Source: Oscillospiraceae bacterium
GTDB taxonomy: Bacteria > Bacillota > Clostridia > Oscillospirales > Acutalibacteraceae
DNA length: 64,000 nt
Assembly: GCA_015066465.1 (NCBI GenBank)
Contig: SVOI01000004.1
Coordinates: 39,416 to 103,415 of the forward strand
Direction of reading: 5' to 3'
Positions 19,438 to 44,947 of the stretch are shown here, piece by piece (the first letter of the stretch is position 1; the number at the start of each line of letters is the position of its first letter). The notes below the pieces were generated by a model. It did no database searches and had not been told where the DNA came from. It worked only from the letters and a program-made list of their open reading frames with translations. Made by a program: the position numbers and the translations under genes.

Positions 19438-19471
19438 ATAATACAAAATGTTATGTACTGTTTTTGGGATG
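19438..19471 (-). promoter_or_regulatory. Island promoter motif upstream of CbbX-like gene
   Basis: CATCC-CAAAAACAGTA-N12-TATTAT. Confidence 0.65.
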
Positions 19472-20690: not shown

Positions 20691-20726
20691 CCCCAACTAT
20701 TTATTTCAATAGTCGGGGTTTTGTTT
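20691..20726. terminator. Bidirectional terminator
   Basis: CCCCAACTATT/AATAGTCGGGG (one mismatch) plus T-tail, convergent genes. Confidence 0.8.
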
Positions 20727-23700
20727 TACTCAAACTCTTCAAAAATATCCATTTTTTCTCTAATTTTTTCAATTTCTTCTTCACAGAGTCGTAATTTTTC
20801 AACATAAACATTGTTTTCAGTTTTTAAAAGTTCTTCAAGCTCGTCCTTTCTTTTTCTTGAACTACCGAGTTTTTCTTCAACCTCTGTCTGTACCCTGTTA
20901 AAACGCTTCAACAGATTTATCACTCGTTTAGCATTACCAATAGTTGATTCCCCCATCTCCACTAAAAATTGTTCTTTTTTACATTCAAGAAAAATATATG
21001 GTTTTTTCTCATTAACCACTTCGGGTAACACAATTTTAAATCCCAGAATAGTTACATTTTCTTCAAACGCAGTCTTTTTTATCACTACATCGTAAGTCAG
21101 AATATTTTCGATTTGGTGATAAGCATTTAAGAACTTTTCATTAGTAGTATTACGCAAAACTTTTACCAACTCTTTAACCTTAGCAAGACGATTTTCTGTT
21201 GAAATAATAGCTCCATCAAGCGAGTTAAACTCTTTTTCCATATCGTTTCTTACATCTTTTTCCTTTGCAATCAACACCCTTAAATTCTGTGCTTCATTTT
21301 CTTTTTCTGCAAGTTGCTTCATAAGAGGTTCTGACAATGCAAGTGCTTTTACTTCAGCATAGCTTAACACGCTATCTTCTAAATCAGATGCTGTACGCTG
21401 ATAAAGGCTGTCTGTTAAGAATTGTGAAATAAATCTTTGCTTTGTTTCTAATAACTGCCACGAATATGAATCAAAGCTACCCTCGGACACATATCTGTAA
21501 ATTAAAACATCTGTGTTTGTATTTCCCTTTCTTAAAATTCTACCTTCTCTCTGAACCATATCTGCAGGTCGCCACGGAACATCAAGATGGTGAATTGCCT
21601 TCAGCTTAACCTGAACATTAGCACCAACGCCAAGTTTAAATGTTGAGCCTAATAAAATACGAATTTCTCCATTATTGAATTTCTTGAACAACTCAACCTT
21701 ACGACTTTCAGTTTTGTAATTATGTATAAATGCAATCTCTTTTTTGGGAATGCCTTTTTCAACCAATTTATCGCGAAGTTCTGCATAAACACTAAAATCT
21801 TCTCCCTTAGGTGTAGAATAATCGCAAAATATCAATTGGGTTTCGTCAGAACTTTCTTTATATAGATTGTAAACATTCTCAACACATCTGAAAATTTTTG
21901 AATACTGGTTGTAAGGTTGTTCTTCACCCACAAGTTTAAGGTCAAGTGCAGCTTTTCTTCCATCAGTACTGACTTTAAGCATATTGTCGTGTTTTTTGTC
22001 AATTATCCCTGAGCGTATCAGTTCTGACCTTTCGCAAAGATTTTTCATATACCCTGCCAATTCAGGATATTTTTCAATAACCTCATCCTTATAACCACTG
22101 AATTCGGGTAATCCTTCAATGTTTGTATTCGCATAAAATATCGCTATTTGCGAGAATAATTTTGACAACTCTGGCAAATTAAAGAACTTGGCAAAACGAT
22201 AAACAAATCTGTATTGTGAAGCATTAACATCAATCTCACAAAATTGTTCAGGTAAAGCAAAGGTTTTAACCCAGTTATCAAACACATCTAACTTTCGTTC
22301 CTGTAATTGTTCATATTGTAAATACATCTGCATAGCATAAGCATCCGCAATTGAGTTACAAAGCGGTGTACCTGTGGCAAAAACAACTCCCCTGCCATCA
22401 TTTGCCTGCTGAACACATCTTACCTTATGCAATAAATCAAGGCATTTGTTTGAGCCCTTTGTATTTATTCCCCTCAAATTTCTCATCGAGGTTCTAATAG
22501 GCAAATTTTTATAATTGTGTGCCTCATCAAGAAACAATGTATTTATCTCAAGTTCATCAAATGATACTTCCGTATTATCAGTATTCATACAATTGATAAA
22601 ATCCTGTGTGAGTTTAACTATACGTTTTTTCTCCTGATTCAAAGGTGTATCCCAACCGTAAATATACCCCTGATGAGTTCGCATACTATTAAGTGTTGTT
22701 TCAATTCGCTTCAATTGAACATTCATATTGTCAAGAATAGAATCGACCGATAACGGAATCATCTCAAAACAACTGTAAGCTATAATTATTCCGTCATAAT
22801 CGCCATCACGAATCTGAGTAAGCACCTTAGTGCGCATTTCAGGTTTAAACATTTTGGGTTCAATTGCAAGAATCTTTGATGTTGGATATAATTCAGAAAA
22901 AATTTTTTCCCACTGACCAACAATGTGGTTCGGAACCACAAACATATTTTTTCTTGAAATCCCCTCCTGGCGCATTTTCATAGCGGCTGCTATCATAATA
23001 TAAGTTTTACCCGCACCTACATCAAATGCTAACAAAGTATTATTACCGCTAATTATTTTCTGCACCGCATCTTTTTGATAAGGATACAATGTAAATTTCT
23101 CTGACATATTTGGAAAAGATAATTTACTACCATCAAAGCTTGGTTTTTCAAGATTTGAAAACATTTTATTGTACGCTTCTTCTACCTCCCATATTCTGTC
23201 TTCATCTTGCCATATCCATTTTTTAAACTCATCTTTTATGAGTTTTTGTTTTTCTATAGCAGCAACAGTGTTTTTCTCATCATATTTATTGTTTTTATCG
23301 TGAAGCCTTATTTCTCTTAAATTCAATGTAGCTTCAATTATATAAAGAGCATTGTACTGTTTTATACCATATTTAACCTCTGCATTAGTATTATTATAAC
23401 CCAGAGCTCTTTTACTTGGTATCGACCAACTACCTGTAATTTCTTCATATTCTACATAACACGGCTTAAAAAAACGATTATCATTAACAGTTGGAGTTCT
23501 ATCTAAAATATGATAAATAAAATCATTGATTATATCTTTACTTACCCATGGAACGCCTAAAGAAACCTCAATATCTGTGTAAGGTATCTCATGCATTACT
23601 CGTTTTTCAACAGTTTTTTCAAATAGTTTGTTTTTATGTTCCTTTACTAACGTCGCTTTTTTATATATTTCTATCCATTTATCTAAAGTAAATTCAGAAA

Positions 23701-24322
23701 GGTCGTTTTCTGATAATACATCTACAATTTCCTCTGTTGGAAACTCATCTTCTTCACGGTTGTTTGAATAAATACTGTAATCCTTAGCATCGTACACTGA
23801 ATAATCTCTATGCATAAGTTGGTTTGCAATTTGTTTTCCTAACAATTCACCATCAACTATTGCGGCCAATCTGTCAGCTATATAACCTTTTTCTTTTTGC
23901 GCGTATACTGGCATATTATTTTGTATCAATAGGTTTTTCAATTCAAGTTTCCAAAGAATAGACAATTGCCTTCTTCTTGATACACTTTTATTTATTATAG
24001 CTTTGCGTATAATTTCCACATCAGTTTCTTTAATACAAATTATTCCCCAACTTGATGGTATTTTGCCTGCCGCAGACTCAGAATGCTTTTCACCCACAAC
24101 AATATAATTTTCATCAAAAAACAGATTATATGCCTTTACTTGCTCCTGTAACCTACTATAGTTATCTAAATCACTTTTTATCTCAAAGCCCATAAGCCTG
24201 TCCGTTACAGCCATAACATCACAAATAGATGAACCAATGCTTTTTTCCTGATATATTCTTACTTCAGAATAAGTCGCCTGTAAGTACGAAACAAGAATTG
24301 ACTTTATATTTTTTGCATTCAT
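20726..24322 (-). CDS. SNF2-type SF2 helicase with N-terminal PD-(D/E)XK-like domain
   Basis: N-term FEIKSDLDNYSRLQEQVKAYN; LLAFDVGAGKTYIMIAAAMKM; LFLDEAHNYKN; VQREGRILRKGN. Confidence 0.8.
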   Translation of the reverse strand: MNAKNIKSILVSYLQATYSEVRIYQEKSIGSSICDVMAVTDRLMGFEIKSDLDNYSRLQEQVKAYNLFFDENYIVVGEKHSESAAGKIPSSWGIICIKETDVEIIRKAIINKSVSRRRQLSILWKLELKNLLIQNNMPVYAQKEKGYIADRLAAIVDGELLGKQIANQLMHRDYSVYDAKDYSIYSNNREEDEFPTEEIVDVLSENDLSEFTLDKWIEIYKKATLVKEHKNKLFEKTVEKRVMHEIPYTDIEVSLGVPWVSKDIINDFIYHILDRTPTVNDNRFFKPCYVEYEEITGSWSIPSKRALGYNNTNAEVKYGIKQYNALYIIEATLNLREIRLHDKNNKYDEKNTVAAIEKQKLIKDEFKKWIWQDEDRIWEVEEAYNKMFSNLEKPSFDGSKLSFPNMSEKFTLYPYQKDAVQKIISGNNTLLAFDVGAGKTYIMIAAAMKMRQEGISRKNMFVVPNHIVGQWEKIFSELYPTSKILAIEPKMFKPEMRTKVLTQIRDGDYDGIIIAYSCFEMIPLSVDSILDNMNVQLKRIETTLNSMRTHQGYIYGWDTPLNQEKKRIVKLTQDFINCMNTDNTEVSFDELEINTLFLDEAHNYKNLPIRTSMRNLRGINTKGSNKCLDLLHKVRCVQQANDGRGVVFATGTPLCNSIADAYAMQMYLQYEQLQERKLDVFDNWVKTFALPEQFCEIDVNASQYRFVYRFAKFFNLPELSKLFSQIAIFYANTNIEGLPEFSGYKDEVIEKYPELAGYMKNLCERSELIRSGIIDKKHDNMLKVSTDGRKAALDLKLVGEEQPYNQYSKIFRCVENVYNLYKESSDETQLIFCDYSTPKGEDFSVYAELRDKLVEKGIPKKEIAFIHNYKTESRKVELFKKFNNGEIRILLGSTFKLGVGANVQVKLKAIHHLDVPWRPADMVQREGRILRKGNTNTDVLIYRYVSEGSFDSYSWQLLETKQRFISQFLTDSLYQRTASDLEDSVLSYAEVKALALSEPLMKQLAEKENEAQNLRVLIAKEKDVRNDMEKEFNSLDGAIISTENRLAKVKELVKVLRNTTNEKFLNAYHQIENILTYDVVIKKTAFEENVTILGFKIVLPEVVNEKKPYIFLECKKEQFLVEMGESTIGNAKRVINLLKRFNRVQTEVEEKLGSSRKRKDELEELLKTENNVYVEKLRLCEEEIEKIREKMDIFEEFE

Positions 24323-24353: not shown

Positions 24354-24387
24354 ATAATACAAAATGTTACGTACTGTTTTCAGGACA
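24354..24387 (-). promoter_or_regulatory. Island promoter motif upstream of helicase
   Basis: TGTCC-TGAAAACAGTA-N12-TATTAT. Confidence 0.75.
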
Positions 24388-24500: not shown

Positions 24501-24908
24501 ATGAAATATTTATATCTGGCAGTAAAGAAATAAGCAAACTACCACGAGAAGCGACAAACAAAATAATAGAGATTTGTTAAAAAAAAGCACGATATACTCA
24601 TAGGTGATTGCTATGGTATTGATACAACTGTTCAAGCTTTATTAAAACAGCTGAATTATAAAAAAAGTTACTATATTTACATCTTGTGAGAAAGAAAGAG
24701 TAAACCTTGGTAACTGGAAAGTGGTTAATATTAATAGTGATAAACACGGCATAGTACACACGCTGAAAAAGATAAAGCTATGATTAAAGCTTGTGATTAT
24801 GGCATAGCAATATGGAATGGAAAATCAAAAGGAACTGGAAATAATATAACAGGCTTAAAAAAAGAAGATAAAGAAGTTTGCATATTTTATGTTGATAAAC
24901 TTAAATAA
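24501..24908 (+). pseudogene. SLOG/DprA-like nucleotide-sensor family pseudogene
   Basis: Fragments in shifting frames: FISGSKEISKLPREATNKIIEI / KHDILIGDCYGIDTTVQALLKQLNYKK / KVTIFTSCEKERVNLGNWKVV / EKDKAMIKACDYGIAIWNGKSKGTGNNITGLKKEDKEVCIFYVDKLK*. Confidence 0.75.
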
Positions 24909-24994
24909 AAGCACCCCTTATCGACAAAAAATCGGTAAGGGGTACTCAAATCACAAATCTATAAGCATTGGTTTTGCAACTAACTCATAATGAA

Positions 24995-25237: not shown

Positions 25238-26302
25238 TCAATCAAATACAGCTTTCTCTGCAAGCTCTTTGGCTTTAGTTCTGAACCAGGCGTTATCTGG
25301 TTCAATCTGCAAAACATAATTCACACGACCTATGAGCGAATCCTGATATTTCATACTGTCTGCAATTTCAACACCATTTTCAACGGTGATAAAATTTTTG
25401 TTATCACTTTTAATTATTGCATCTTCAAACCCAAATTTCAAAGCATAATAAATTTCCTGACGGAGTTTTCGTTTGTAATCCTTTGAAACATTTACCTTTT
25501 CATTAACTGTAAGACCTGTAACACTCTGTCTGTTACCACTTGAAACAAATACTGTTTTATTTTCATTCAGGTCAAAACCATTTTTATCTAACACATTCTT
25601 CACTTTTTTATATACATCTAAAAGTGGTCTGTCCCCTGAAAAAGTCATATCATCACAATAACGGGTGTAGGTTACGCCTCTTTTTTTACACCACTCACCA
25701 ATGTAATCATCAAAGCTTTTCAATACAAGATTTGACAATGCCGGTGAGGTTGGTGCCCCTTGTGGCAAAAAACCATTTTTACAACAAAGTTTTGTAAGCA
25801 TATATGAAATCTGTTTTGGATAATACTTAATGAACACAAAGCGATAAACAGTTAAAAAGTCAATACTGTTAAAAAAATCTGTGATATCTAATTTCAACAA
25901 ATATTTTTTGTTTGTATGCGGTGAAGCATTACTGTAAAGTGTAGCACCTTTTTTATAAGCGGTTGCATACTCTGAAACGGGAATTTTATTAAGAATTCTT
26001 CTGAGAATTATTCGCTGAATTCGTTTCAGTTGCTTACCGGGAACAAGAAGCATTCTGTCGTTACCATTTTTCTTTTTTATTGTTACATAGCTATATGTTT
26101 TATCACAATTACGCACCGCTCTGTAAACCTGCTTATTGCTGATATCTAAAAATTGTGATAGCTGAAAAGTATCATAAATAAATGGTACAGAATTTTTCTT
26201 TTTATAATCCAGAATCATTTCTGTTGCCGCTATAAGACCGAACTTTTTCACAAAAGCCATATCAGAATTCTGGAATTTTATGCTTTGACCGTTGATAAAC
26301 AT
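25238..26302 (-). CDS. Retron-type reverse transcriptase
   Basis: NASPH (NAxxH), LLKLDITDFFNSI, QGAPTSPALSNL, YCDDMTFSG, SVTGLTVN (VTG). Confidence 0.92.
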   Translation of the reverse strand: MFINGQSIKFQNSDMAFVKKFGLIAATEMILDYKKKNSVPFIYDTFQLSQFLDISNKQVYRAVRNCDKTYSYVTIKKKNGNDRMLLVPGKQLKRIQRIILRRILNKIPVSEYATAYKKGATLYSNASPHTNKKYLLKLDITDFFNSIDFLTVYRFVFIKYYPKQISYMLTKLCCKNGFLPQGAPTSPALSNLVLKSFDDYIGEWCKKRGVTYTRYCDDMTFSGDRPLLDVYKKVKNVLDKNGFDLNENKTVFVSSGNRQSVTGLTVNEKVNVSKDYKRKLRQEIYYALKFGFEDAIIKSDNKNFITVENGVEIADSMKYQDSLIGRVNYVLQIEPDNAWFRTKAKELAEKAVFD

Positions 26303-26316: not shown

Positions 26317-27651
26317 CTAAGTCTCAGAAGAATAACGAACAACACGCCCGAATGGCAATTTTTCTTTACTGCTTACAAGCCAGAGTATAGGAATATTTAT
26401 CGGAGCAGTTTCAGGACACGAGCCAAAGCCATCGGTAAAAATTATTATGCACGACGGAAGATTATCTTGCATTTTGTTTTTTACATACCTGAAAATACAG
26501 TGGAAATCCGTACCGCCACCCCCACTGGGCGTTATGTTATAAACATCCGAACACTCAGAAAGGGGTTCAACCTTTGAAACCTCTGTATCAAAAAAACCGA
26601 TATAACCACTTATACAACCATTAAACATTTCTATTGCGCTACTAAGTTCAGAATAAACCCTTCCAAGTTCTCTGGCATCTACCGAGCCAGAAGTATCTAT
26701 CATAAAAAGTACATTTTTGATTTCGGCTGAATTCTCATTAAAATCAGGCAAGAAAAAATCTGTATCTGAGTACCTTCTGTCTGGTGGTGAAAAAGAATAA
26801 TCACTTATTGTCTCCTGCACAAAGTCGATTAAGAGCTTACGCCAATCAACTACTTTCTCGTCCGTTTTAAGTATTTCACATTCCAAATCTCCGGGCACAC
26901 TGCCAATTCCACAACCATATTGTTTCATTATATTACCAATTATCTTTGCACGCTCTCCCCACATTTCTTTCAAAGATATATCACTTACAATTTGATTATC
27001 TTCGGAAGTTTTCTCATCACCATTTTCGCCACTACCAGCTTTATCATCACCTGCACCGTTTGAAGCGTTCACTTGCATTTTTATAAGTGGATTGTTTTTA
27101 GCTATATCTAAAATCAGTGTTCCACCTGATGTTTCAGGATCAGAACCCCAGTAAAAATTGCTATCGGGCAAATAATCTTTCTGAATCCGTTCATCAAAAA
27201 CTTCCAGACTGAAACACATACTTCTAAAAAGTTCGTCTCTGCTCCACCCTGTCAGATTATCGGTTTTGACTAAAAACGGCTTTCTGAAATCGCCTAAATG
27301 TGCATATCTTTTTTTCAGGTAACCTGCTTGTCTTAATTCTTGATTTACAAATTCATCACAAGCAAGATGATAATCTTTGCTACCTGAAGCATTTAAATCC
27401 CAGATATCGCCAAAAACAATATGTAAAACCTGGTGACACAGAATATACTCTAATTCATCAGGATAAAGTTTTTCTAAAAAAGAAGGCGAAAAATAAATTG
27501 CAACGCCATCTGTTGATATACTTTTGATATCAGAAACAGCTACAAATTTAAGATACATAAGCATAATAGCGTAAAATGGATTAGTATTAAGCAGATTACT
27601 TCTTGCTTCTTCAATTCTGGTTTTTAGCTTATAAATTTTCTGTTTAGTCAT
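26317..27651 (-). CDS. VWA-like protein with N-terminal DUF2201-like metallopeptidase-like domain
   Basis: ILCHQVLHIVFGD; VLFMIDTSGSVDA MIDAS, IIFTDGFG; GGGAGG RBS, overlaps upstream ATPase by 8 nt. Confidence 0.8.
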   Translation of the reverse strand: MTKQKIYKLKTRIEEARSNLLNTNPFYAIMLMYLKFVAVSDIKSISTDGVAIYFSPSFLEKLYPDELEYILCHQVLHIVFGDIWDLNASGSKDYHLACDEFVNQELRQAGYLKKRYAHLGDFRKPFLVKTDNLTGWSRDELFRSMCFSLEVFDERIQKDYLPDSNFYWGSDPETSGGTLILDIAKNNPLIKMQVNASNGAGDDKAGSGENGDEKTSEDNQIVSDISLKEMWGERAKIIGNIMKQYGCGIGSVPGDLECEILKTDEKVVDWRKLLIDFVQETISDYSFSPPDRRYSDTDFFLPDFNENSAEIKNVLFMIDTSGSVDARELGRVYSELSSAIEMFNGCISGYIGFFDTEVSKVEPLSECSDVYNITPSGGGGTDFHCIFRYVKNKMQDNLPSCIIIFTDGFGSCPETAPINIPILWLVSSKEKLPFGRVVRYSSET

Positions 27652-28750
27652 AATCCTCCCAGAAGCGTCCGCTTCGCATAAACCAATCATTATAAATTTT
27701 ATTACTTTCTAAAATCTTTCTGATATTTTTAATCTTTAAAAACTCTTCAAAAATATTAGTTCTAAATTCCAACGGCATTTTATCCACAAAGTCAATTGCA
27801 TTATAAATTTCTTGCTCTGAACTATGTTTTTTTACATTTGAAGTAATCATTGTTGCAGTTGCCATCAAGGCTTCAGGTCTTCCTGGCACAATACATTTTC
27901 CTTTTACAAATACATCTTTAGCTGACGGAATTTTAGAATATATTTCACACCAATTTTTAAAATCATACGCCGCTTCTTCACCGACACAACCAGCTATTAA
28001 AGGAAAAACACTGTTAATATCAGATGAAACATCATTTAATATATTGCTTACCATTTCCCATGATCTCGGTGTAGGAAATGCAAGAGAGTTTTCCTCTGTA
28101 TTAAAGGCATTCAGAACATCGGGAGTATTTTTTATATAACCACACACTTTTTCGTTTATGCCATTTTTTACCGCCCATTCATACCACGCAGTCGCATTAC
28201 TCTTAATTTCAATATGACATAACCTGTTCGCCAACGCTTTCGGCATTGTGTAAGCCACTGATTTATCTGTAACTCTGTTACCTGCGGCAATAACAATGCA
28301 GTTTTCAGGTAATTTATGCTCACCGACTGTCCTGTCAAGCGTAATTTGATAAGCCGAAGCCTGTACAGATTGCGGTGCTGCTGAAATTTCATCTAAAAAC
28401 AAAATATTTATAACATCTTCACTGTCATCCATCTGAAAAATCTGTGGCTTCAACCAGACCGCAAGTGTTTTATCTGCATTCGCAGTCGGAATACCTCTTA
28501 AATCAACCGGATTTAAAAGTAAGAGTCGTACATCTGTAATTACAACCTTTTTACCAGTTGCAACACTCATTTCTTCCGCAATTTGTTTTACCCCCTGAGA
28601 CTTGCCGACACCGGGTTGTCCCCAGAGCATAACTGACGGAAAACGCTTTAAAGGAAGCTTATTTTTTATGAGTGTGGTATATGCAAATGATAATTGCCTT
28701 ACCATTTGTGCTACTGTCATTGTTGTAGCAAATGATTGATTTTCAAGCAT
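27644..28750 (-). CDS. MoxR-type AAA+ ATPase
   Basis: VMLWGQPGVGKSQGVKQIA, INILFLDEISAAPQSVQ, IVIAAGNR; AAAGGATGG RBS before ATG at 28750. Confidence 0.85.
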   Translation of the reverse strand: MLENQSFATTMTVAQMVRQLSFAYTTLIKNKLPLKRFPSVMLWGQPGVGKSQGVKQIAEEMSVATGKKVVITDVRLLLLNPVDLRGIPTANADKTLAVWLKPQIFQMDDSEDVINILFLDEISAAPQSVQASAYQITLDRTVGEHKLPENCIVIAAGNRVTDKSVAYTMPKALANRLCHIEIKSNATAWYEWAVKNGINEKVCGYIKNTPDVLNAFNTEENSLAFPTPRSWEMVSNILNDVSSDINSVFPLIAGCVGEEAAYDFKNWCEIYSKIPSAKDVFVKGKCIVPGRPEALMATATMITSNVKKHSSEQEIYNAIDFVDKMPLEFRTNIFEEFLKIKNIRKILESNKIYNDWFMRSGRFWEDYD

Positions 28751-28780
28751 ACACTTCCATCCTTTATGTGTTTCTTTTAT

Positions 28781-29016
28781 GTAAAACACCCACTCTACAG
28801 TACAATCTCACCTGATAAAAGCGGAGGCGAATTGCGTGTCACGAAGTGACATTTTATTCGTTGGAGCGTTATCAGGAGAACCGGCGGAGGCCGAAATTTC
28901 CAAGTTTTTAGTTCATCAGAGAGCGACTTCGCTCACTGTAGGCACCAAGACTATTCTTTTAAACCTTACTTAAAGATAACTTTAAGTATTTTACACTACT
29001 GTAGAGTGGTGTTTAC
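28781..29016 (-). ncRNA. Candidate retron msr-msd RNA
   Basis: a1 GTAAACACCACTCTACAGTA / a2 TACTGTAGAGTGGGTGTTTTAC; hairpins TACTTAAAG-TTAT-CTTTAAGTA, CAGTGAGCGA-AG-TCGCTCTCTG, long CTCCTGATAA..GTCAC-TTC-GTGAC..TTATCAGGTGAG; heads the RT operon. Confidence 0.85.
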
Positions 29017-29022: not shown

Positions 29023-29056
29023 ATTATAGCAGGCAATGAGTCCCAAAAAGTGTACA
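29023..29056 (-). promoter_or_regulatory. Retron promoter, island motif
   Basis: TGTAC-ACTTTTTGGGA-N12-TATAAT, -10 ends 7 nt before a1. Confidence 0.8.
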
Positions 29057-29093: not shown

Positions 29094-29127
29094 ATAATAC
29101 AACACTTTATGCACTGTTTTCAGGCTC
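29094..29127 (-). promoter_or_regulatory. Second island-type promoter upstream of retron
   Basis: GAGCC-TGAAAACAGTG-N12-TATTAT. Confidence 0.5.
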
Positions 29128-29143
29128 TATTCTATTTTAATAT
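29110..29143 (+). promoter_or_regulatory. Opposing island-type promoter
   Basis: TGCAC-TGTTTTCAGGC-N12-TAATAT. Confidence 0.45.
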
Positions 29144-29378
29144 GGATGGGAATTTATGCAAAAAAGTGTATATTTTCAAGGCTTTTTGGTGATTTTAATT
29201 CATGTTATATGCCACAATTTATTAACTAATTTTTTATCCACACGAACAATAAAATTAAACACAAAAACTAAAGGCTATGCGAATAAAAAATCGCATAGCC
29301 TAATATTTTTTTGATTTTTACTTACGTTTTAGTTTTTAGCAGACCCATAACAATAGTAGAGAGGAAAGAATATACTCG

Positions 29379-29831
29379 TTATTTCTCTACTCCAGTGTAT
29401 CTTGCATCTTTAGGATATGGTGCGTGTTTTGGTACAAACCATTTACCAGCTTTCTTTACTGCACCAGGAATTCTTTCTTCACGACACAACGCCTTAATTC
29501 TATTGTCGTTTTTGCCTTGGAGTTCAGCGTACTCGTGAAGAGTTATATATTCATCATCCACAAGATTTTGCATTAGTGATACAAAAGGATTTTCAATTAA
29601 ACAAAGGTGGTTGTCATCTGTTACATAAGCTAAAGTATGAGCTTCATATTTTTCGATGTTATTAACTTCTGTATTCCATTGTCCATCATTGCCTTTGATT
29701 TTGTCTACAGTTTGCCAGCAAATAAACAATTGTTTCAAAACAACATCATCAGCAAGCTTTATGCTGCCATCAGGACAAAGTAATTTTATTTGACCATCTT
29801 TTTTTACTAAACGAGCTTTCATAATTTTCAT
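29379..29831 (-). CDS. Hypothetical protein with C-terminal HTH-like segment
   Basis: YITLHEYAELQGKNDNRIKALCREERIPGAVKKAGKWFVPK. Confidence 0.6.
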   Translation of the reverse strand: MKIMKARLVKKDGQIKLLCPDGSIKLADDVVLKQLFICWQTVDKIKGNDGQWNTEVNNIEKYEAHTLAYVTDDNHLCLIENPFVSLMQNLVDDEYITLHEYAELQGKNDNRIKALCREERIPGAVKKAGKWFVPKHAPYPKDARYTGVEK

Positions 29832-29863
29832 TTCCTTTCAATTTTTATTGGGAGTTGTAATTT

Positions 29864-30388
29864 ATGTATTATAACCAAGAGCTTGTTGAGTATATAAAAG
29901 CAGCTTATACTGCTATCTATCAAATTAACGTACAAAGTGTCATTGATGAAATTCAAAAACTAAGCCCATATTCTGAGAAAATAACACCATATATTCGTAA
30001 TGTTGAAGAACTTCAAAAATATTTAGAATTAAACCTTAAAGAGGGATTTATAACACGACCAACTCTATTAATAGATATAGACATTAACTATCGTGTTAAT
30101 GGAGGTCTTACCAATTTGGAAAAAATGTTAAAAGGCTCTCCACCATATGATTACAGAACAGGACAAGTTATTGAATTACATCATATAGGCCAACATTATG
30201 ATTCACCATTTGCTGAATTACCACAGCTTATACATGGTGGAACAGGTATGTTTGGTATATTTCATAACTTGCAAATAGAAAGTTGGAGAGTAAACAAAGA
30301 TTGTGTTATTAAAACTCAAAACGAGACTTCTCAATATTGGATAAAACGAGGTGAACAACTGTATGAAATATCAGCCAAACGAGATTAA
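29864..30388 (+). CDS. LHH/HNH-type nuclease
   Basis: DYRTGQVIELHHIGQHYDSPFAELPQLIHGG..IFHN. Confidence 0.7.
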   Translation: MYYNQELVEYIKAAYTAIYQINVQSVIDEIQKLSPYSEKITPYIRNVEELQKYLELNLKEGFITRPTLLIDIDINYRVNGGLTNLEKMLKGSPPYDYRTGQVIELHHIGQHYDSPFAELPQLIHGGTGMFGIFHNLQIESWRVNKDCVIKTQNETSQYWIKRGEQLYEISAKRD

Positions 30389-32324
30389 TTCCAGTAACCT
30401 TGCTGATGTTGTCACCGATATTTTCAAACAACTAAACTATGAAGATGCTAAAAAATGCAAGGAAAACATAGTTAGTTATTTTGATTGTTTAGAAATCGGA
30501 GCTCAATCCTTTGACGATTTGTATAATAATACTCTTTCAAATGAAAGTTTTCAAGAGGTTTATTGTCCTAATGATGATGAGCACTTAATTCAAAAGAATG
30601 GGAAAAGCACCGATGGAAAACAACGTTATCGCTGTAAAACCTGTGGAAAAACCTTTTTTGCTATTCAAAATTCCTTGGTTTCTAATGTTAATCAGGATGT
30701 TTCTGTTTGGATTAAATTTATAAGAGGAATGATTACTCAAAACACCATGGAAGAACTTAGTGATATATGTGGGATTAGCAAATCAACTGCGTGTAATTGG
30801 CGATTAAGAGTTTTTCAAGCTCTTGAATTACTTTCTAATGATGTAAAGTTATCCGGAACAATAGTAGCTGATGATACACGATTAAATTACAATTTCAACG
30901 GAAATCACGGTGATAGTTTTATATATCAGAGAAACCCAAAAAAGAGAGGAAATTCAAATACAATACATAATTTTCAAAAAAATCAAATTTGTGTTATGTG
31001 TGCAATTGATGAATACGGTAATTCATTCTCAAGGACTGCTGGATTTGGAACCCCAACTAGTGCTCGTGTTGTAAACGCATTTAAAGATAAAATTGAAATC
31101 AACGACAACAACATACTTGTAACAGATGGAGCCAATTATTATAAAAAGACATATGAAACATATAATTTTGCAGAACTTAAGCTCAAAAAAACACTAATTA
31201 AAGGAAACAAACGTGTTCCTGACACATCTGATAAATACCATATCCAAAGAATAAACGCTTATCATAGCAAATTAAAACGCTTTATGCGTAAATATAACGG
31301 CGTTTCTTCACGATATTTGCCAGGGTATTTATTGCTTTTTGATTACTTACAAAACACGGCTAATATGGATAACACCAGACGATGTCAAAATATATTAAGT
31401 GCTATGATTATAGCCCCTAAGAAAACAAATAAAGAATTAGAAAATCTTTATGTTTTACCTGTTTCAAATATTCCAGAATTGGAACCTTGGGAAATAAAGA
31501 TATCTATGGAAGAGCAAAAGATTTATAGAGATTGGCAAAATCATATTCCAATAAAAGAAATAACACGAAAGTATAAAATCAACAGAAGAAAAATCTACTC
31601 AATTGCTGAAAAAGTAAAAAAGTACAATGTACATAATAAAATAATATCCAAAACCTCAGAAGAATTAAATAAAAAACCTTTAAAACCAATATCTGAACGT
31701 GATTGGGATGTATTTTTAAGGTGTTATCGCGATGGATATAAACAAGCTGATGTTGCTAAAGAGTTAAATTTATCTCCTGCAAGAATTGCTGTAATAATCA
31801 AAGAAATTAAAAATAGACCTGAAGCTATTGGCATAGAAAAATATAAACGCCCACAAAAGCTGCGAATTGAACGCACTGACACTAAAGAAAGAAACGAGAA
31901 GATTTACAAGGATTATTTATTTTTGAAAACTGCTTATAAAACCGATAAAGAAGTATATATACTTTTGTCACAAAAGTACAATTTATCTATAAGTCGGTGC
32001 AACAAAGCAATTTTTAAGTTGCGTAAAGAAAACAACAAACTCTTTAACGCTCGATGCTGGAAATTCGAAAAGCTAACATTATCAGAATATGAGTACTACG
32101 AATTTTTACAATCTCGCAACATTGCTCTCGTGGATGAAATCATTTTTTATAGAACCACTTATCCCAAAATGCGTAAGCAAGATATTTATAAAATAGTTGC
32201 TCCTAAATACAATGTTTCGGTTGACCACGCAGCCAAAATATTTACCCATCAAAAGAAGTATTTGAATATACATGATGATTTTGTTAAAAAGAAACTCAGG
32301 CTGCAGGAGCGAGTTCTGGTATAG
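30363..32324 (+). CDS. IS1595-like (ISXO2-type) transposase with long HTH-rich C-terminal extension
   Basis: Zinc ribbon CPND..YRCKTCGKTF; VADDTRLNYNFNGNHG, VTDGANYY, HIQRINAYHSKLKRFMRKYNGVSSRYL. Confidence 0.75.
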   Translation: MKYQPNEINSSNLADVVTDIFKQLNYEDAKKCKENIVSYFDCLEIGAQSFDDLYNNTLSNESFQEVYCPNDDEHLIQKNGKSTDGKQRYRCKTCGKTFFAIQNSLVSNVNQDVSVWIKFIRGMITQNTMEELSDICGISKSTACNWRLRVFQALELLSNDVKLSGTIVADDTRLNYNFNGNHGDSFIYQRNPKKRGNSNTIHNFQKNQICVMCAIDEYGNSFSRTAGFGTPTSARVVNAFKDKIEINDNNILVTDGANYYKKTYETYNFAELKLKKTLIKGNKRVPDTSDKYHIQRINAYHSKLKRFMRKYNGVSSRYLPGYLLLFDYLQNTANMDNTRRCQNILSAMIIAPKKTNKELENLYVLPVSNIPELEPWEIKISMEEQKIYRDWQNHIPIKEITRKYKINRRKIYSIAEKVKKYNVHNKIISKTSEELNKKPLKPISERDWDVFLRCYRDGYKQADVAKELNLSPARIAVIIKEIKNRPEAIGIEKYKRPQKLRIERTDTKERNEKIYKDYLFLKTAYKTDKEVYILLSQKYNLSISRCNKAIFKLRKENNKLFNARCWKFEKLTLSEYEYYEFLQSRNIALVDEIIFYRTTYPKMRKQDIYKIVAPKYNVSVDHAAKIFTHQKKYLNIHDDFVKKKLRLQERVLV

Positions 32325-33354
32325 GTGCAAATTCAGTTAAAGCACTACCGGAAATATACGAACCAACTTTAGTTAATTCTTCGTTTAAAATAGTTTCTTT
32401 ATCGTAGTATTTGTTATTTTCAAGCCATAAAAACAATGCAAGGTAATTATGCAAATACTTTGTAGAAACACCATTGTATTTCTCTAAAAACTTTCTGAAA
32501 CGATGATGTAAAGCATTAACATTGTTAATGTGATATACACCCTTTACAGTTGGCTTGTGGTTATTTGTAGGCAATACAATATGCTCAACATTCGTGGTTC
32601 TGAAATATTGATTGTAAGCCCAACAACCATCTGTTAAAATAACACTTTCTTCAGAAACCTTGTCTCCGAAAAGTTGCTCCAACAAAGGTTTATTAATAGC
32701 ACCGCGGCAAGGAATTATACCAGAAAATGATTTATCTCTTTGAACAACACAAAGAACGCAAGCCTTCGAATTGCTACTTGTACAAACGTTATCGGTTCCT
32801 CTTTTAAATGGTTTTCGTGGCATTGAAAACTTCTTACTGTTCTTATGATTACCTTTATAGCTAATTCTCATAAATAACTCATCCATTTCAACTAAGCCTG
32901 TATAACTTGTTGAGAAAGAATGCTCAGTTAAAGCGTTAAGAATTTTATGTCTCCAAGTAAATGCTGTTTGTATAGCAATGCCACAGGCTTCTGCGGTCTT
33001 TGCAATAGAAAGACCTTGAAGCATACACTTTATATATTCCTGCCAGGTATCAGCGTCTTTACGGGTACGAGATACGACAGATGAACTTAATGTACCAAAA
33101 GTTTTGCCGCAATCTCTGCACAAATAACGAATATGTCTGTGAGAATCTTTACCATTTTTAACTACATGAACAGAACCACATTTATTGCAGACTGGCAAAT
33201 CTTCTTTTACAAGACTGTACACAGAGTTATCATCATCTTTTATATTACTTGTTAACTTAGAATAAAGTTCGCCAACAATGGAATCTAATTCATTTTGGGG
33301 AAGCTTTTTAAGTAATTTTAAGATATCGTTTATCTGGGTATTTGTTTTCTCCAT
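32296..33354 (-). CDS. IS1595 family transposase
   Basis: CNKCGSVHVVKNGKD..CRDCGKTFG; LVEMDELFM..GNHKNSKK; LTDGCWAY; NNVNALHHRFRKFLEKYNGVSTKYL. Confidence 0.85.
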   Translation of the reverse strand: MEKTNTQINDILKLLKKLPQNELDSIVGELYSKLTSNIKDDDNSVYSLVKEDLPVCNKCGSVHVVKNGKDSHRHIRYLCRDCGKTFGTLSSSVVSRTRKDADTWQEYIKCMLQGLSIAKTAEACGIAIQTAFTWRHKILNALTEHSFSTSYTGLVEMDELFMRISYKGNHKNSKKFSMPRKPFKRGTDNVCTSSNSKACVLCVVQRDKSFSGIIPCRGAINKPLLEQLFGDKVSEESVILTDGCWAYNQYFRTTNVEHIVLPTNNHKPTVKGVYHINNVNALHHRFRKFLEKYNGVSTKYLHNYLALFLWLENNKYYDKETILNEELTKVGSYISGSALTEFAPIPELAPAA

Positions 33355-33465
33355 TAGTATCTCTCCTTTATCTATATTATATCGCAAACGACACAATATG
33401 TCAAGAAAAATCGTATTTTCTAAGGAAAAAAGCCGTCAAGATTTCTCTTGACGACCCGGTTTAAA

Positions 33466-34026
33466 TTAACCTATTTTTGATTGTTTGCGAATCTCTGTTT
33501 CGCGCTGTACTCTTTTTTTCTTAATTCTTTCGCATTCTGCAGCAAAGCTCTTTATATTCGATTTCTTTTGAGAATTCATTAAACAAGCCATAAGATAATC
33601 AGAACGCTTAATACCAGAACTTTTAATCATATTGTTAATCATTTCACCTTCATCTGCATAAACAGTGAACCTGATAGTTGTTTTGTTGTAAGGAGAAGGG
33701 GTTCTGGTAATAGGTTGATAGTTTCTGTTTCTCTTTGTTTCAATTTCAATTACTGGTTCTGTTGGAGCATCATCTTCAACATCAGGATTGCTATTACTAT
33801 TAGTTTTATCAATTACATAGAAATCTTCCTCTTTTATATCTTCGCCGTTATTAAGAAGAATATCAACCGTTTCAGCTTTTACAACATAAGTAATGTTGTC
33901 GTTATCAACTGGATGTAAATACGCTTTATCACGTCTTATTTCAGCAGATTTAAGGTCTAATACAAATCCTTTTCCAGCTATATTAAATATAGCTTTAATA
34001 GTTTTCACAAAATTTTTCATATCCAT
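33466..34026 (-). CDS. Hypothetical protein, possible RHH/MobC-like C-terminal region
   Basis: IRFTVYADEGEMINNMIKSSGIKRSDYLMACL. Confidence 0.45.
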   Translation of the reverse strand: MDMKNFVKTIKAIFNIAGKGFVLDLKSAEIRRDKAYLHPVDNDNITYVVKAETVDILLNNGEDIKEEDFYVIDKTNSNSNPDVEDDAPTEPVIEIETKRNRNYQPITRTPSPYNKTTIRFTVYADEGEMINNMIKSSGIKRSDYLMACLMNSQKKSNIKSFAAECERIKKKRVQRETEIRKQSKIG

Positions 34027-34059
34027 AATTGTTACCTCTTTTATATTTATTCGTTCTGT

Positions 34060-34084
34060 CTATCACGTAAAAAATTTGTGATAG
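34060..34084. promoter_or_regulatory. Palindromic operator candidate upstream of 33466-34026
   Basis: CTATCAC-N11-GTGATAG. Confidence 0.55.
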
Positions 34085-34350
34085 TAAAAAGTTGCAAAAA
34101 AATAATCACCTCCGTATAGCAACGAAGATGATTATGCATATTTTTATGGACATTTCAAATAAAAAAAGTCATACACAAAGTGTGTGACTTTTAACTGTTT
34201 CAAATTTTTTGTCAATACTTGGGATTACGAATTCAGTAAATCGATAACAGCAGTATAAAATCAATATTAAAACTTAATTCCAAATAATTAACACAATAAA
34301 ATAATAAAAAATGTATTGACTTTTTGAAAAAATCTGCATATAATATAATC

Positions 34351-34452
34351 ACAGACAAAAATTTGAACACTAAGTTTCGAATACAAATTTTTATTTTACA
34401 GACAAGCATTGATAAAGAGCAGAGTGATTTTAATCTTCTGCTCTTTATTTTT
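34351..34452 (+). ncRNA. Candidate small RNA
   Basis: TTGACT-N17-TATAAT (34316-34344) then AAAAATTTG..CAAATTTTT stem and terminator AAAGAGCAGA/TCTGCTCTTT plus T-run; no ORF. Confidence 0.6.
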
Positions 34453-35232
34453 TTATTCCATTAACCAATTAGATTCTGGTTTCATTAGTAATCTTGCTTT
34501 TTCGTATGCTATTTCTTTTGTAAAAATAGTATTTGCTCTATACTGTTCGGTATCAGTTTTTTCAACTGCCAACGCCATCGTCTCATAATTGCCATTGTTA
34601 TCGGGTATTTTTATAGGAACTAAATACATAATTTCATCTCTATAGAACTGAGGAACCACTAGTCGAAGATTTCTACAAATTCGTAATTTAGCATCTTCAA
34701 TAGCACCAAATAATAAAGATTTAACAACAATTTTATCAAAACTGATAACACTGCTTATACGCTCCCAGTTATCGTCTAAAATATGGTCAGTATTAACTAT
34801 AATATTATAATTTGGATTAAAATATAATTCGCGATAATCATCAGTATATGTTGCTAATTTAGGAACATCATAAAAAACATCTAAAAAGTCTCTATGACAT
34901 TTATCTTTGAATCCTTTTAGTATCCAAGGTTGAGCTTCTTCTAAGTCGTTTTTCTTAAATAAACCAACAATATCATTTCCGTTATTTGTTAATAATCCTG
35001 TATTAAAACAAGAGAAATTTCCATCGTTGGAAACTAATATTTTATCTTGCTTGTAGCATTGAGAAAAAGTTCCTATAATATATTTTTTCAATATGTTATT
35101 TGGAGTTTTTTCATCGAAAGTCCATTTTTCTTCCTCTGCCAGATTAGATAAATATAGTAACATTTTACTGAAACCTAATTCAGTACCGCAAAATGCATAA
35201 TTAAAAATATAACTCATATCTTTTTCTTCCAT
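34453..35232 (-). CDS. DUF3825-like protein
   Basis: CFNTGLLT, WILKGF, VNTDHILDDNWER, VVPQFYRDEIMYLVPI, ALAVEK..Y..NTIFTKEIAYEKARLL. Confidence 0.7.
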   Translation of the reverse strand: MEEKDMSYIFNYAFCGTELGFSKMLLYLSNLAEEEKWTFDEKTPNNILKKYIIGTFSQCYKQDKILVSNDGNFSCFNTGLLTNNGNDIVGLFKKNDLEEAQPWILKGFKDKCHRDFLDVFYDVPKLATYTDDYRELYFNPNYNIIVNTDHILDDNWERISSVISFDKIVVKSLLFGAIEDAKLRICRNLRLVVPQFYRDEIMYLVPIKIPDNNGNYETMALAVEKTDTEQYRANTIFTKEIAYEKARLLMKPESNWLME

Positions 35233-35396
35233 AAAGTAACTCCTGTGCACATTTTTTCGTATTATATCATAAAATAATGGATTTATCAACAAAAAGCGAC
35301 AAAAAACGAATATTATAAAAAACAAAAAGACCAACTTCGATATCAACTTCAATTGAAGCTGGTCTTTTTATTTATGTAGTTATATAAACTTGATTA

Positions 35397-36665
35397 TTAT
35401 TCCTCAAAATATGTAAACTTTTTATGCTTAAAAGATTTGTAAGTATGCTTTTTATAACCATCTGGTAAAAGTTCATAGTATACAATATCTGCACTACTCT
35501 TAAACTTATTAATTTTCGGTGTTTCAAGAATAATTTTATCGCACCATTTATCAAAGTTGTCTAAGAACCTTTTATCGTGTTGAACGTCTTTGATATTCTC
35601 TCTAATTGCCTTGCGCACAACATTTGAAACATCTCTGTAATATTCAATAACATTGTATAAAGCATAATAAACATCATCATTGCAATTTTTATTTTTAGCA
35701 TATGTTTCAAGTCTGGTTTGTAGATTTTTAATTGTTCGTGTGGACTTTTCACAACAAGGATAGACATTTCGCTTTTTGCTATTTCTTTTCTTCACAATGT
35801 CTATACATTCTTCCGAACAAGATTTAGCATTTTGATTTTGAGGAATAAAAAATTTATTACAACCATCGCATTTCTTTATTATCGCTCCGTTTTTATACAG
35901 TTGAACTATCGCTGTAGCAAAAACCTCTGCTAACGAATGCACAGAAAAATTTTTACAATTATCTTTGTAAATGGAAGATAGTTTTTGATATTCTAAATAC
36001 TCTTTCATTGAATATATATTTGCAGCATCAGGCACCATGTACTCTTTTGTAGAAAAAATAATATATGGAATTATTTTTTCGAGTAAATAATAGTGTTCCT
36101 CATTTTCAATGTGTGATTTAAGCCACTTTTTCAATTGGGAATATTCATATTTGAATGCGTTATGTTCTTCCCAAAAACGTTTCAAAAATTCTTCAGGATT
36201 GATTTTATAACAATACAAAATCGGATTACAAAGAGTCAGAATACGAGCATCGTTCATTGCTTCATCTTTATCCTGTAAATATTTATATTCAAAATAATTA
36301 ATTACGTCTGATTCGTTTATGTCTTTATATTCAGTAATATCTTGTAAATTTTTATAAATAGTAGACAAAAGATTAAAGGTTTCATAAAGAGATGATAAAC
36401 CTTGCGAACTTTCAATTTTTATAAATAAATTTAAAAGTTTTTTTGTATCACCACTTAAATTTGAATTGTTAATAGTTTCATAGGGGGTATGGCGAGAATG
36501 GGAACTATAGAATTTATTCCAGGATATGTTGGAGTTATATAGTTCAAGGATGATTTTCAATATATTAACCTTGATTTTTTTTACTTCACAACTATCTTCA
36601 TACTTGGTTATAGAAATTTCAAATTGTAAATAAGTTTTTCTTTCATCAACAATTCTAACTAACAT
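35397..36665 (-). CDS. Hypothetical protein with CGNR-like zinc ribbon
   Basis: IIKKCDGCNKFFIPQNQNAKSCSEECIDIVKKRNSKKR. Confidence 0.55.
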   Translation of the reverse strand: MLVRIVDERKTYLQFEISITKYEDSCEVKKIKVNILKIILELYNSNISWNKFYSSHSRHTPYETINNSNLSGDTKKLLNLFIKIESSQGLSSLYETFNLLSTIYKNLQDITEYKDINESDVINYFEYKYLQDKDEAMNDARILTLCNPILYCYKINPEEFLKRFWEEHNAFKYEYSQLKKWLKSHIENEEHYYLLEKIIPYIIFSTKEYMVPDAANIYSMKEYLEYQKLSSIYKDNCKNFSVHSLAEVFATAIVQLYKNGAIIKKCDGCNKFFIPQNQNAKSCSEECIDIVKKRNSKKRNVYPCCEKSTRTIKNLQTRLETYAKNKNCNDDVYYALYNVIEYYRDVSNVVRKAIRENIKDVQHDKRFLDNFDKWCDKIILETPKINKFKSSADIVYYELLPDGYKKHTYKSFKHKKFTYFEE

Positions 36666-36904
36666 ATCCTACACCTTTTTTTACGGAAACAAGAAATGGT
36701 AATAAAAATACCTTTTCTTGTTTTTCTTTATTACGCATTTTTCTTATGCTACAATCCTCTCGCAATACGGAAACAATGTGGAAAACATGCTGTTTCCGCA
36801 ACGCATACACGATATTACCAAATAATTACAATTCTGTCAAGGAATTTCCACTTTTCAGGGTATTTTCGTGAAAGTGCAAAGTATTTTTTGAAAGGATGAA
36901 AAAA

Positions 36905-37474
36905 ATGATTATTCCAACAGTACTCGAAAACACAGGTTATGGCGAAAGAGGTATGGACCTCTATTCACGACTTCTCGATGACAGAATTATATTCTTATCA
37001 GAAGAAGTAAACAATGCAACAGCTTCAATAATTGTTGCACAAATGCTTTACTTAGAAGCTCAAGACCCCGAAAAAGATATCAGCTTCTATATTAATAGTC
37101 CCGGTGGAAGTATCAGTGCCGGTATGGCTATTTACGATACTATGCAACACATTAAATGCGACGTTTCAACAATTGGTGTCGGCCTACAGGCTTCAATGGG
37201 TGCTTTTTTGCTCTCATCAGGAACTAAGGGTAAGCGCTTTATATTGCCAAATGCAGAAGTTATGATACATCAGCCTTTATCAGGCACACAAGGTCAGGCA
37301 AGCGATATTATAATTGCTGCAGAGCATATTCAACGATTAAAACAACGATTGAACAAAATTTTAGCAGAGCAAACCAGCAAATCTATTGAACAGATTGCTA
37401 TAGATACAGACCGTGACAACTGGCTCACTGCTGAAGAATCACTTGAATACGGCTTGGTTGACAAAATACTTTAA
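36905..37474 (+). CDS. ClpP-like serine protease subunit (accessory paralog)
   Basis: [40 protein letters not shown] catalytic S/H motifs. Confidence 0.9.
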
Positions 37475-37500
37475 AACAAATTATGAAAGGTATGGTCTTA

Positions 37501-37797
37501 ATGAAGAAAACCAATATATTCAAAAAAATATACGCTTTAGCAGGTGTCAGTTTTGTGTTACTTGCTAAAAAGTGTGTGTTGACCTTTAAAATTAAAAGTC
37601 AGTATAAAAATCTCGGCAAGCTCGACAACGCTATTGCGAAATATCACGGTATGCTCTTTAACCCTTATCGTATTTCAAACGGATTAAGACCTACCTTTGG
37701 CATACAGAAAAGCAACGCTACAAGCATTTCTCGTGAGAACTTAGAGAGATGCCACGAAATCATAAGCCAGAAACGACAAAACGAATCAAAAGAATAA
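37501..37797 (+). CDS. Hypothetical protein between ClpP- and ClpX-like genes
   Basis: ORF in operon context. Confidence 0.5.
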   Translation: MKKTNIFKKIYALAGVSFVLLAKKCVLTFKIKSQYKNLGKLDNAIAKYHGMLFNPYRISNGLRPTFGIQKSNATSISRENLERCHEIISQKRQNESKE

Positions 37798-37820
37798 TTA
37801 AAGAAAGAGGTTTTATAACT

Positions 37821-39362: not shown

Positions 39363-39394
39363 ATCTCTGCAGCTTAACTGTTGCTTGAGAATAG

Positions 39395-39454
39395 AAGCCC
39401 CCGATTCTAATTCTGTGTCATAAATTACTATGACTGGGAGCTAAGGGGGCTTCG
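39395..39454 (+). terminator. Large-loop terminator/structured element
   Basis: GAAGCCCCC ... GGGGGCTTC closing a ~42-nt loop. Confidence 0.55.
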
Positions 39455-39547
39455 AACTAAAAGAGATTAATGCGAACAATTAACCTACAAAACCTTTGAA
39501 CAACAAAATGTAGGTTAACTAAATAAAAAGCTAAGGAGTGTGTAACT

Positions 39548-40045: not shown

Positions 40046-40120
40046 GGAAAATTTGCGTGAAATTTTCAATGTCATTTTCATTGAAAATTATATTTGAAAA
40101 GTGTTATGAAAGGTGGTAGT

Positions 40121-40450
40121 ATGTCGCAGAACTTTGAATTCAATGAATTAAGTGAATTGGAGGCAACTGTAATGGATAGCGTAAAACAAGAAGCTTTAAA
40201 CGATGTGTATAAAGAAATAGCTTCCGAATTGGGCATAGATGCTGCGCACGCTATTTACAGATTGTATAGAGGTACACAAATAAACTTTCCAAAACAGTTT
40301 TTGTCACCTGATTACATAAAAGGCAGAATTGTATATGAATACACTTACGAAAACGTTTCAGTTGAACGTTTAGCTGTTAAATACAATTATACGCAGCGAA
40401 CAGTCAAACGAATTTTGCAGTCTCAAAATACTGTAAAATCAGGTAAATAA
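40121..40450 (+). CDS. Mor-type transcription activator-like HTH protein
   Basis: ASELGIDAAHAIYRLYRGTQINFPKQFLSPDYIKGRIVYEY..RLAVKYNYTQRTVKRIL. Confidence 0.6.
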   Translation: MSQNFEFNELSELEATVMDSVKQEALNDVYKEIASELGIDAAHAIYRLYRGTQINFPKQFLSPDYIKGRIVYEYTYENVSVERLAVKYNYTQRTVKRILQSQNTVKSGK

Positions 40451-40478
40451 ATTTAATATAAGGTTAGTGGTGAGAAAT

Positions 40479-43471: not shown

Positions 43472-44455
43472 TTATTTGTATTTCTCCTGTGCCTTTTCTA
43501 TATTTGTTTTTATTTTTTCTCTTAATTCAACAGGTTTTACCACTTCAACAAAATTCATATACTGCATAGCCCAGAATTCCATAGCGTTAGGGCTTGCGAC
43601 TAATTCAACTTTTACATATTCTTCGTCAAGTGGTGTGATTTTAATATCTTTACCAAACCAATCGACAATCTGGTCAACTATTCTTTCCTGTGCTTTAAGC
43701 TCAATTTTTTCGTGTTTATCGGTAAACATATACGGTAAAGCAGAAGAAAATTGTTTGTAATCAATTCCTCTTTCAAAACCCTCTACTGTGCGGATATCAG
43801 TAAGAGCCGCAGCCTCATTCAATCGCATATTACTGATTCTGTCTAATCTGTAATAGCCCATATTGTGCCATTTTTCGTTAAGTGCCATTAAGTAATAGCG
43901 TTGGTTATGTAAAATCAACTGGTATGGACTTGCCTTATGGAAAGCAGATTTATGAAGCTTTTTATCAGTTCCAAATTTATTATAATCAAATTCAATCTGA
44001 CATTTTCGTTCTATTGCTTCATCAATAAGCTCAATATTTAAAAACAACGCCTGGTTATCTGTTTTATTCCAGTCATTAACAGAATAAACATTTTTCACGT
44101 GTGAACGAAAATAAACATTTGACATATTGCAAAGCTTTTCTATAAGCTCTTTTGAATGCTTTGCGGTTATATGCTTACTTGAAAGCACACCGTCTATAAG
44201 CATACGAAGCTCACTGTCTTCAAAAGGTCTGTCGACTAAAAAACTGCCCTGTCTTGTAGATTCTATTTCATAACCTAATTCTTTTAAAAGTGAAATATTA
44301 CGGCTTATAGATTTTCGTTCAACTATAATTCCATAGTCACGCTCTAAAATTTCAATAATATCATTCTGCTTTAATGGATGATTGAAATCACTGTATTTCT
44401 CAAATATCTGCAATATTCTTATAAGTGCAGATTTTTTTGGTTCAAGGTCTGACAT
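43472..44455 (-). CDS. HTH-WYL domain transcriptional regulator
   Basis: HTH N-term; IEFDYNKFGTD..KASPYQLILHNQRYYLMALNEKWHNMGYYRLDRI. Confidence 0.85.
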   Translation of the reverse strand: MSDLEPKKSALIRILQIFEKYSDFNHPLKQNDIIEILERDYGIIVERKSISRNISLLKELGYEIESTRQGSFLVDRPFEDSELRMLIDGVLSSKHITAKHSKELIEKLCNMSNVYFRSHVKNVYSVNDWNKTDNQALFLNIELIDEAIERKCQIEFDYNKFGTDKKLHKSAFHKASPYQLILHNQRYYLMALNEKWHNMGYYRLDRISNMRLNEAAALTDIRTVEGFERGIDYKQFSSALPYMFTDKHEKIELKAQERIVDQIVDWFGKDIKITPLDEEYVKVELVASPNAMEFWAMQYMNFVEVVKPVELREKIKTNIEKAQEKYK

Positions 44456-44947
44456 TATATCACATCCTGTAAATATTGTAACAATACCATTGTACCATAT
44501 TTGCACCATAAAACAAGATGCAATATGCGACAAAAAGAGTGCATTGTTATTGTGCGAAATATTAAAAAATTCCACTCAATAATTATTTTCCACTATATGC
44601 CTTTAAGCATATTTAATACTTCTCTGTCACTTCGTTCGCAATTCCAGTGCTTAATAAGCAGTTCGTAATTATCTGAAATTCATTTTTTTATTTCGAAGTC
44701 CACATTTTCAGATATACTTATTTTTATATAACCCACTATCTTCAGTAGTAACCTTTACAACGTTATATCCGTTAAATACCATTTTTCCTAATATAGCCCC
44801 ATATCTTAACTTAATACAAATATACAAGAAAAGTTGGAATAAAAACGGTGCATTATTATAAAATCGTTTCTCCCTTTTCTTTGTTTTATGCGTATAAAAA
44901 AATTGCACCCTAAACAAATCAAATTTGATTCATTTAGGATGTTTAGA

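Follow-up and report, generated by a model that had tools for sequence, protein, structure and literature searches.

Introduction

Retrons are bacterial immune elements built around a reverse transcriptase. Sixteen subtypes are told apart by their effectors (PMC13405049). In Retron-Sda1, the ncRNA and reverse transcriptase (RT) are of type III, and the PRTase effector is replaced by a HipA kinase and DUF3037 (PLoS Biol 2025, PMC12548924). HipA/DUF3037 defends without the ncRNA or RT against the phage tested (PMC12548924). A second body of conflict systems, the MoxR-vWA ternary systems, has been proposed to act through invader-triggered remodelling (PMC7159879); DUF2201 is not named in that report (Kaur et al. 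2020).

In this study, we analysed a stretch of 64,000 nucleotides of a bacterial genome (the window), in which a preliminary description had proposed a retron msr-msd RNA at 28781..29016 on the minus strand (-). The RNA lies upstream of a MoxR gene, a DUF2201 gene and an RT gene. To our knowledge, a AAA+ machine of the MoxR-DUF2201 type is not known as a retron partner. The literature searched, with the main retron surveys outside its scope, did not pair retrons with MoxR or DUF2201 in any paper, and nowhere described an AAA+ remodeller of the MoxR-vWA kind as a retron effector. The novelty of a MoxR-linked retron is therefore provisional, and it lies in the two intervening genes and not in the RNA itself.

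A conserved msr-msd RNA

The structural elements named in the preliminary description were all located in the sequence. A TATAAT -10-like element, recognised by its letters, lies at 29023..29028 (-), 6 nt ahead of the a1 arm (20 nt; 28997..29016, -). The a2 arm (22 nt; 28781..28802, -) is complementary to a1 with two 1-nt bulges. Between the arms are a 9-bp msr hairpin (28968..28987, -), a second msr hairpin (28917..28938, -) with GAGCGA-AG-TCGCTC inside it, and a 66-nt msd stem-loop with approximate ends (28811..28876, -), which is the probable template of the RT-DNA. A 29-nt segment between the two msr hairpins (28939..28967, -) is an insertion missing in 13 of 13 relatives. The fold check proposed earlier was run on 28781..29016 (-) and gave a minimum free energy of -82.2 kcal/mol, compared with -51.0 +/- 4.4 kcal/mol in shuffled sequences (z -7.1); none of the 200 shuffles folded as well.

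RT relatives were collected from 398 genomes of the same family, and an RNA of the same plan was found directly upstream of 13 retron RTs. Typically, the end of a1 is marked by CAGTA|G(C/T)GTA; next come one hairpin, a second one that is invariant (GCGA(A)GTCGC) and a stem-loop, before ATTTTGTAC and a2. The tip of the stem-loop reads TCAC..GTGA in the relatives, with a different tip in a subgroup of three (L047, L077, L079). The preliminary description had held that a lack of compensatory changes in homologs would speak against its reading. In a 14-sequence alignment, double-sided compensatory changes occurred at 32 of the 41 predicted consensus pairs. They affected 14 of the 15 consensus pairs of the a1/a2 helix, the remaining one being invariant, and all 6 consensus pairs of the first hairpin; AGTCGC of the second hairpin was invariant. 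Paired cells made up 94.4% of this alignment; sliding the partners by 1-3 columns lowered this share to 40-47%. The covariation score was 0.69, compared with 0.27 in shuffles. A covariance model built from 10 relatives with the window sequence left out matched 28780-29016 at 100.7 bits (E 4.9e-27). The msr-msd reading thus gains support from strong covariation among the RNAs of RT homologs and from an independent model, and it is nearly certain that 28781..29016 (-) is a true retron msr-msd RNA and the locus a retron.

One earlier doubt was resolved. The context of the branching G had seemed not obvious; a canonical A|G stands straight after a1, and its G (28996, -) is invariant in the 14 aligned sequences. 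The sequence around it is CAGTA|GTGTA in the window RNA and CAGTA|GCGTA or CAACA|GCGAA in relatives. By analogy with known retrons, G28996 is the predicted branching, or priming, guanosine.

No Rfam family matched the window RNA, and even at E up to 5 only noise was returned. The GCGA..TCGC hairpin motif (GCGAGTCGC) is also visible in a canonical type III-A plasmid retron of Bacillus mycoides. The ncRNAs of plasmid type III retrons were not found by the covariance model, so the group-level kinship of the RNA with these retrons is indicated by the shared hairpin motif only. With its covariance support, the RNA defines an ncRNA family that Rfam lacks and that is usable for RT-DNA tools.

A retron RT of the type III/Ec107 clade

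The RT gene (25238..26302, -) encodes the motifs typical of retron RTs (NAxxH, YxDD and VTG), here NASPH, YCDD and VTGLTV. Against PADLOC models it scored 3e-116 for Ec107-like and 1e-98 for RT_III-A, which places it in the type III/Ec107 clade, and it exceeded the family cut-off of NCBIfam retron_St85_RT. Its best PDB matches include the solved retron RTs Ec86, Ec67, Ec78, Ec83, Kva2 and Eco8. Judged by its sequence, this protein is a bona fide retron RT.

The relatives collected from the 398 genomes are about 46-57% identical to it. Its two nearest annotated relatives on plasmids have the canonical type III layout, with PRTase plus wHTH (or a small hypothetical protein). Among the adjacent window genes scanned with Pfam, no PRTase or wHTH accessory gene was found; the neighbours are MoxR, DUF2201 and the helicase. 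MoxR-DUF2201 was also absent beside the 13 nearest ncRNA-RT relatives. The neighbourhoods of the sibling RTs exclude a shared MoxR-DUF2201, and no conserved effector was found in the sibling clade, the neighbours being unrelated to one another. Examples among these metabolic neighbours are GH3, rhamnosidase and PFL, and these same-ncRNA relatives look like solo retrons. In one sibling locus (L077:1179-7240), the RT is followed by a WYL regulator and a McrBC-like pair (AAA_5, McrBC-family), a possible retron-defence pairing.

MoxR and DUF2201 between the RNA and the RT

The preliminary description had noted that two genes separate the RNA from its RT, and this was confirmed: MoxR spans 28750-27644, DUF2201 27690-26317 and RT 26302-25238. 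The three genes are co-directional; DUF2201 (likely start 27651, -) overlaps MoxR, and the RT starts 14 nt past DUF2201. The locus holds a conserved msr-msd RNA and an RT with all motifs, with co-directional MoxR and DUF2201 between them. The MoxR start (ATG 28750) lies about 30 nt past a2, the position of the RT start in relatives.

The MoxR-type AAA+ ATPase (27644..28750, -; Pfam AAA_3/AAA) has intact Walker A (GQPGVGKS) and Walker B (NILFLDE) motifs. The DUF2201 protein (26317..27690, -) matched Pfam DUF2201_N/DUF2201 with E-values of 1e-26 and 9e-16 and has a metallopeptidase-like domain and a vWA domain. The former weakly matched MJ1213 (PDB 4qhf; E 0.01). The latter was recognised by Foldseek matches from an AF2 model, and its MIDAS motif, DTSGS, is intact. 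The HExxH site reads HQVLH, so that the catalytic Glu is changed to Gln and the motif of an active metallopeptidase is not present. In a motif survey, many members of the clade without helicase also carried Gln in place of the catalytic Glu, and HExxH was mostly kept in the helicase-linked clade. The idea of a protease effector is weakened by HQxxH. Both motif histidines and a third (H108) are invariant in the DUF2201 alignment, and this pseudo-metallopeptidase domain may therefore retain metal binding without catalysis.

Distribution of MoxR-DUF2201 and its recurrence with retrons

In a tree of 91 MoxR proteins, the MoxR-DUF2201 pairs fell in two clades. In the larger clade, the pair follows an SNF2-like helicase. 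In the other clade (31 proteins, window included), the two genes form a unit with unrelated genes around it. The window MoxR lies within this clade with 100% support, and the other members have no adjacent helicase. Since most of the examined pairs occur without a retron, MoxR-DUF2201 does not need one. The possibility of a hidden ncRNA of this family at every MoxR-DUF2201 locus was excluded by cmsearch of 81 loci, which found it in L092, L105 and L100 only; among 11 further loci, it was found in L033 only.

Retrons of this RT family adjoin MoxR-DUF2201 at five loci: the window, L092, L100, L105 and L033. L092, from a goat rectum MAG, is 98.6% identical in DNA to the window locus and likewise has ncRNA-MoxR-DUF2201 in this order; its contig ends inside DUF2201 before the RT, so that its retron evidence is the ncRNA only. 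In L100 (Lachnospiraceae) and L105 (Butyrivibrio proteoclasticus), the order is MoxR-DUF2201-ncRNA-RT on one strand, and a1 begins roughly 15-35 nt past the DUF2201 stop. MoxR-DUF2201 here occupies exactly the place of PRTase-wHTH in canonical type III retrons; the effector appears to have been exchanged, as published for Retron-Sda1. In L033, helicase-MoxR-DUF2201 is convergent with the retron. The nested order with RT adjacency (ncRNA-MoxR-DUF2201-RT) was seen in one genome only.

To explain the association, the MoxR tree needs four independent gains and the RT tree three. With random gene placement at the measured densities, 0.02-0.03 such retron-MoxR neighbours are expected. The P value for four associations is about 0.0004-0.005 with 20-fold island clustering and up to 0.09 with 50-fold; if defence islands cluster 50-fold, four associations cease to be improbable. 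In a class sample of 392 genomes, MoxR was present in 9 and the RT in 20; the window was the one place where they were neighbours, which makes the pairing a rare one. These results suggest that the retron-MoxR partnership arose several times.

Further genes were seen around the related loci. A Tpt1/KptA RNA 2'-phosphotransferase gene lies just upstream of MoxR in the Butyrivibrio locus (L105:9255-9839). In L100, MoxR is directly preceded by genes for a 366-aa AAA/STAND-like ATPase and for a protein of 620 aa that has no match in Pfam (L100:7117-9973), and a similar pair occurs near MoxR in L135. A scan of IMG/VR with a single DUF2201 or RT protein gave no match, and queries with alignments gave distant relatives only. 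The IMG/VR loci L173-L186 carry MoxR homologs (32-41%), often beside DUF2201 proteins, and Bacillus phage G encodes one at 418938-419903 (45%).

Helicase, WYL regulator and an operator-like motif

Downstream of the RT lies a sce7726 domain fused to an SNF2-like helicase (20726..24322, -), a possible functional partner. It is a homolog of the helicase beside most other MoxR-DUF2201 pairs (36-44% over residues about 236-1196). The sce7726-family domain is restriction-nuclease-like by its motifs. A degenerate antisense gene remnant was observed between the RT and the helicase, at about 24590-24930.

Allowing up to 2 mismatches, three matches to a 19-nt motif, TCCTGAAAACAGTAC(A/G)TAA, were found in the window, compared with 0.05 expected. 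These operator-like matches lie upstream of the retron (29107..29125, -), the sce7726-helicase (24367-24385, -) and an AAA gene or operon (19451-19469, -). In L092, an exact copy is found at 4326, between a WYL gene and the ncRNA. The WYL-domain regulator (43472..44575, -) is directly upstream of the retron in L092 and is displaced in the window by a 14.3-kb insertion (about 29125-43421), which is absent from the near-identical L092 locus. The insertion ends in terminal inverted repeats, GGCTCTATTCTA[A/T]TTTAAT[G/A]TGGAT, and is flanked by an 11-bp direct repeat, CCTGAAAACAG. Its cargo includes IS1595-type transposase genes, an LHH nuclease and ClpP-like and ClpX-like genes.

WYL regulators are known neighbours of phage defence systems (PMC9122601). 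Several helicase-MoxR-DUF2201 loci have a homologous WYL gene next to them, as has the sibling retron next to McrBC (L077). From the sequences, it is plausible that the 19-nt motif is a WYL operator. We count the WYL regulator and the shared operator-like motif in favour of a tie between the locus and defence-type regulation.

Proposed mechanism and alternative explanations

We consider it rather probable, from gene order and homology, that the locus is a type III/Ec107-like retron with a MoxR-vWA machine in the effector slot, in which RT-msDNA would control MoxR-DUF2201. Transcription, msDNA synthesis, restraint and triggering are proposed by extension from other retrons. A single transcript from near 29016 would supply the RNA and all three proteins. 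Priming from the 2'-OH of G28996, the RT would make msDNA on the msd stem-loop as template and, in complex with this msDNA, would bind and restrain the MoxR-DUF2201 complex. The trigger would be a phage activity that either acts on the msDNA, by damage or modification, or dislodges the RT, and so sets MoxR-DUF2201 free. The freed MoxR ring, powered by ATP and using the MIDAS-bearing vWA domain to clamp its substrate, would then remodel an essential or phage target and stop the infection. The effect would probably be remodelling and not proteolysis, because the glutamate of HExxH is Gln in the window DUF2201.

Functional coupling of the retron and MoxR-DUF2201 appears likely from their arrangement. 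It is unproven, because the captured defence genes of Retron-Sda1 can work without the retron (PMC12548924). This precedent, in which RT and ncRNA were dispensable for defence, also serves a possible but distinctly less probable explanation: a solo Ec107-like retron of ncRNA and RT, between whose parts a self-sufficient, possibly defence-related, MoxR-DUF2201 module landed by chance. The metabolic genes beside the same-ncRNA relatives fit such an event, as does the occurrence of MoxR-DUF2201 alone, next to unrelated genes, in about 27 loci without helicase. However, the association recurs in four lineages on the MoxR tree, three of the retron-MoxR loci have a tight same-strand operon layout, and the window MoxR start takes the place of the RT start past a2.

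The helicase could instead be the centre of the system, with sce7726-helicase, MoxR and DUF2201 as the usual trio, to which the retron was added as a sensor or regulator. Among the 57 sampled loci with the helicase, the majority show the helicase-MoxR-DUF2201 arrangement; the window helicase is homologous to the trio helicases, its promoter and that of the retron have the 19-nt motif in common, and L117 and L129 have separate sce7726-like ORFs close to the trio. However, the well-supported clade of the window MoxR is otherwise without an adjacent helicase, and the window helicase forms its own transcription unit, about 0.9 kb from the retron operon, with the degenerate stretch between. We regard this explanation as improbable.

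In its wider form, the preferred reading of a retron with MoxR-DUF2201 in the effector slot describes a new retron type, a RT-msDNA-restrained MoxR-vWA remodeller with a pseudo-metallopeptidase domain, gained independently about four times by Ec107/type III-like retrons acting as plug-in sensors. We hold the chances of this wider form to be about even. If true, it would connect retrons with MoxR-vWA conflict systems, each a large area of bacterial immunity, and would give a testable role to the widespread MoxR-DUF2201 pair. It would also suggest that Ec107-like retrons, which have no recognised partner in most relatives examined, are portable sensors.

Comparison with known systems

NorQ/NorD and RavA/ViaA likewise join a MoxR AAA+ ring with a vWA co-factor; they have house-keeping metalloenzyme or respiratory functions and are not known to include a retron. 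A jumbo-phage pair of MoxR and a metallopeptidase-vWA protein (PMC7824862) has the same two-domain vWA partner, and DUF2201 matched viral VWA-like/metallopeptidase proteins in Foldseek with E down to 8e-20. That pair differs in being phage-encoded, in its proposed role as a virion assembly chaperone and in having no retron. The MoxR-vWA ternary conflict systems (Kaur et al. 2020, PMC7159879; iSTAND version, PMC12839542) also combine a MoxR AAA+ protein with a peptidase-domain vWA protein. In the window, Pfam recognised no VMAP/STAND-type third component among eight neighbouring proteins, and a retron RT and ncRNA appear in its place.

The type III-A/Ec107-like retrons (PRTase-wHTH-ncRNA-RT; Retron-Bpu1, Retron-Ppe1 and Ec107) share the RT family and the GCGAGTCGC hairpin with the window; unlike them, the window has MoxR-DUF2201 in place of PRTase/wHTH, set between the ncRNA and the RT. 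In Retron-Sda1, as apparently here, the PRTase effector is swapped for another two-gene defence system, with several independent cases (PMC12548924); the two genes are HipA kinase and DUF3037 there, and MoxR and DUF2201 in the window.
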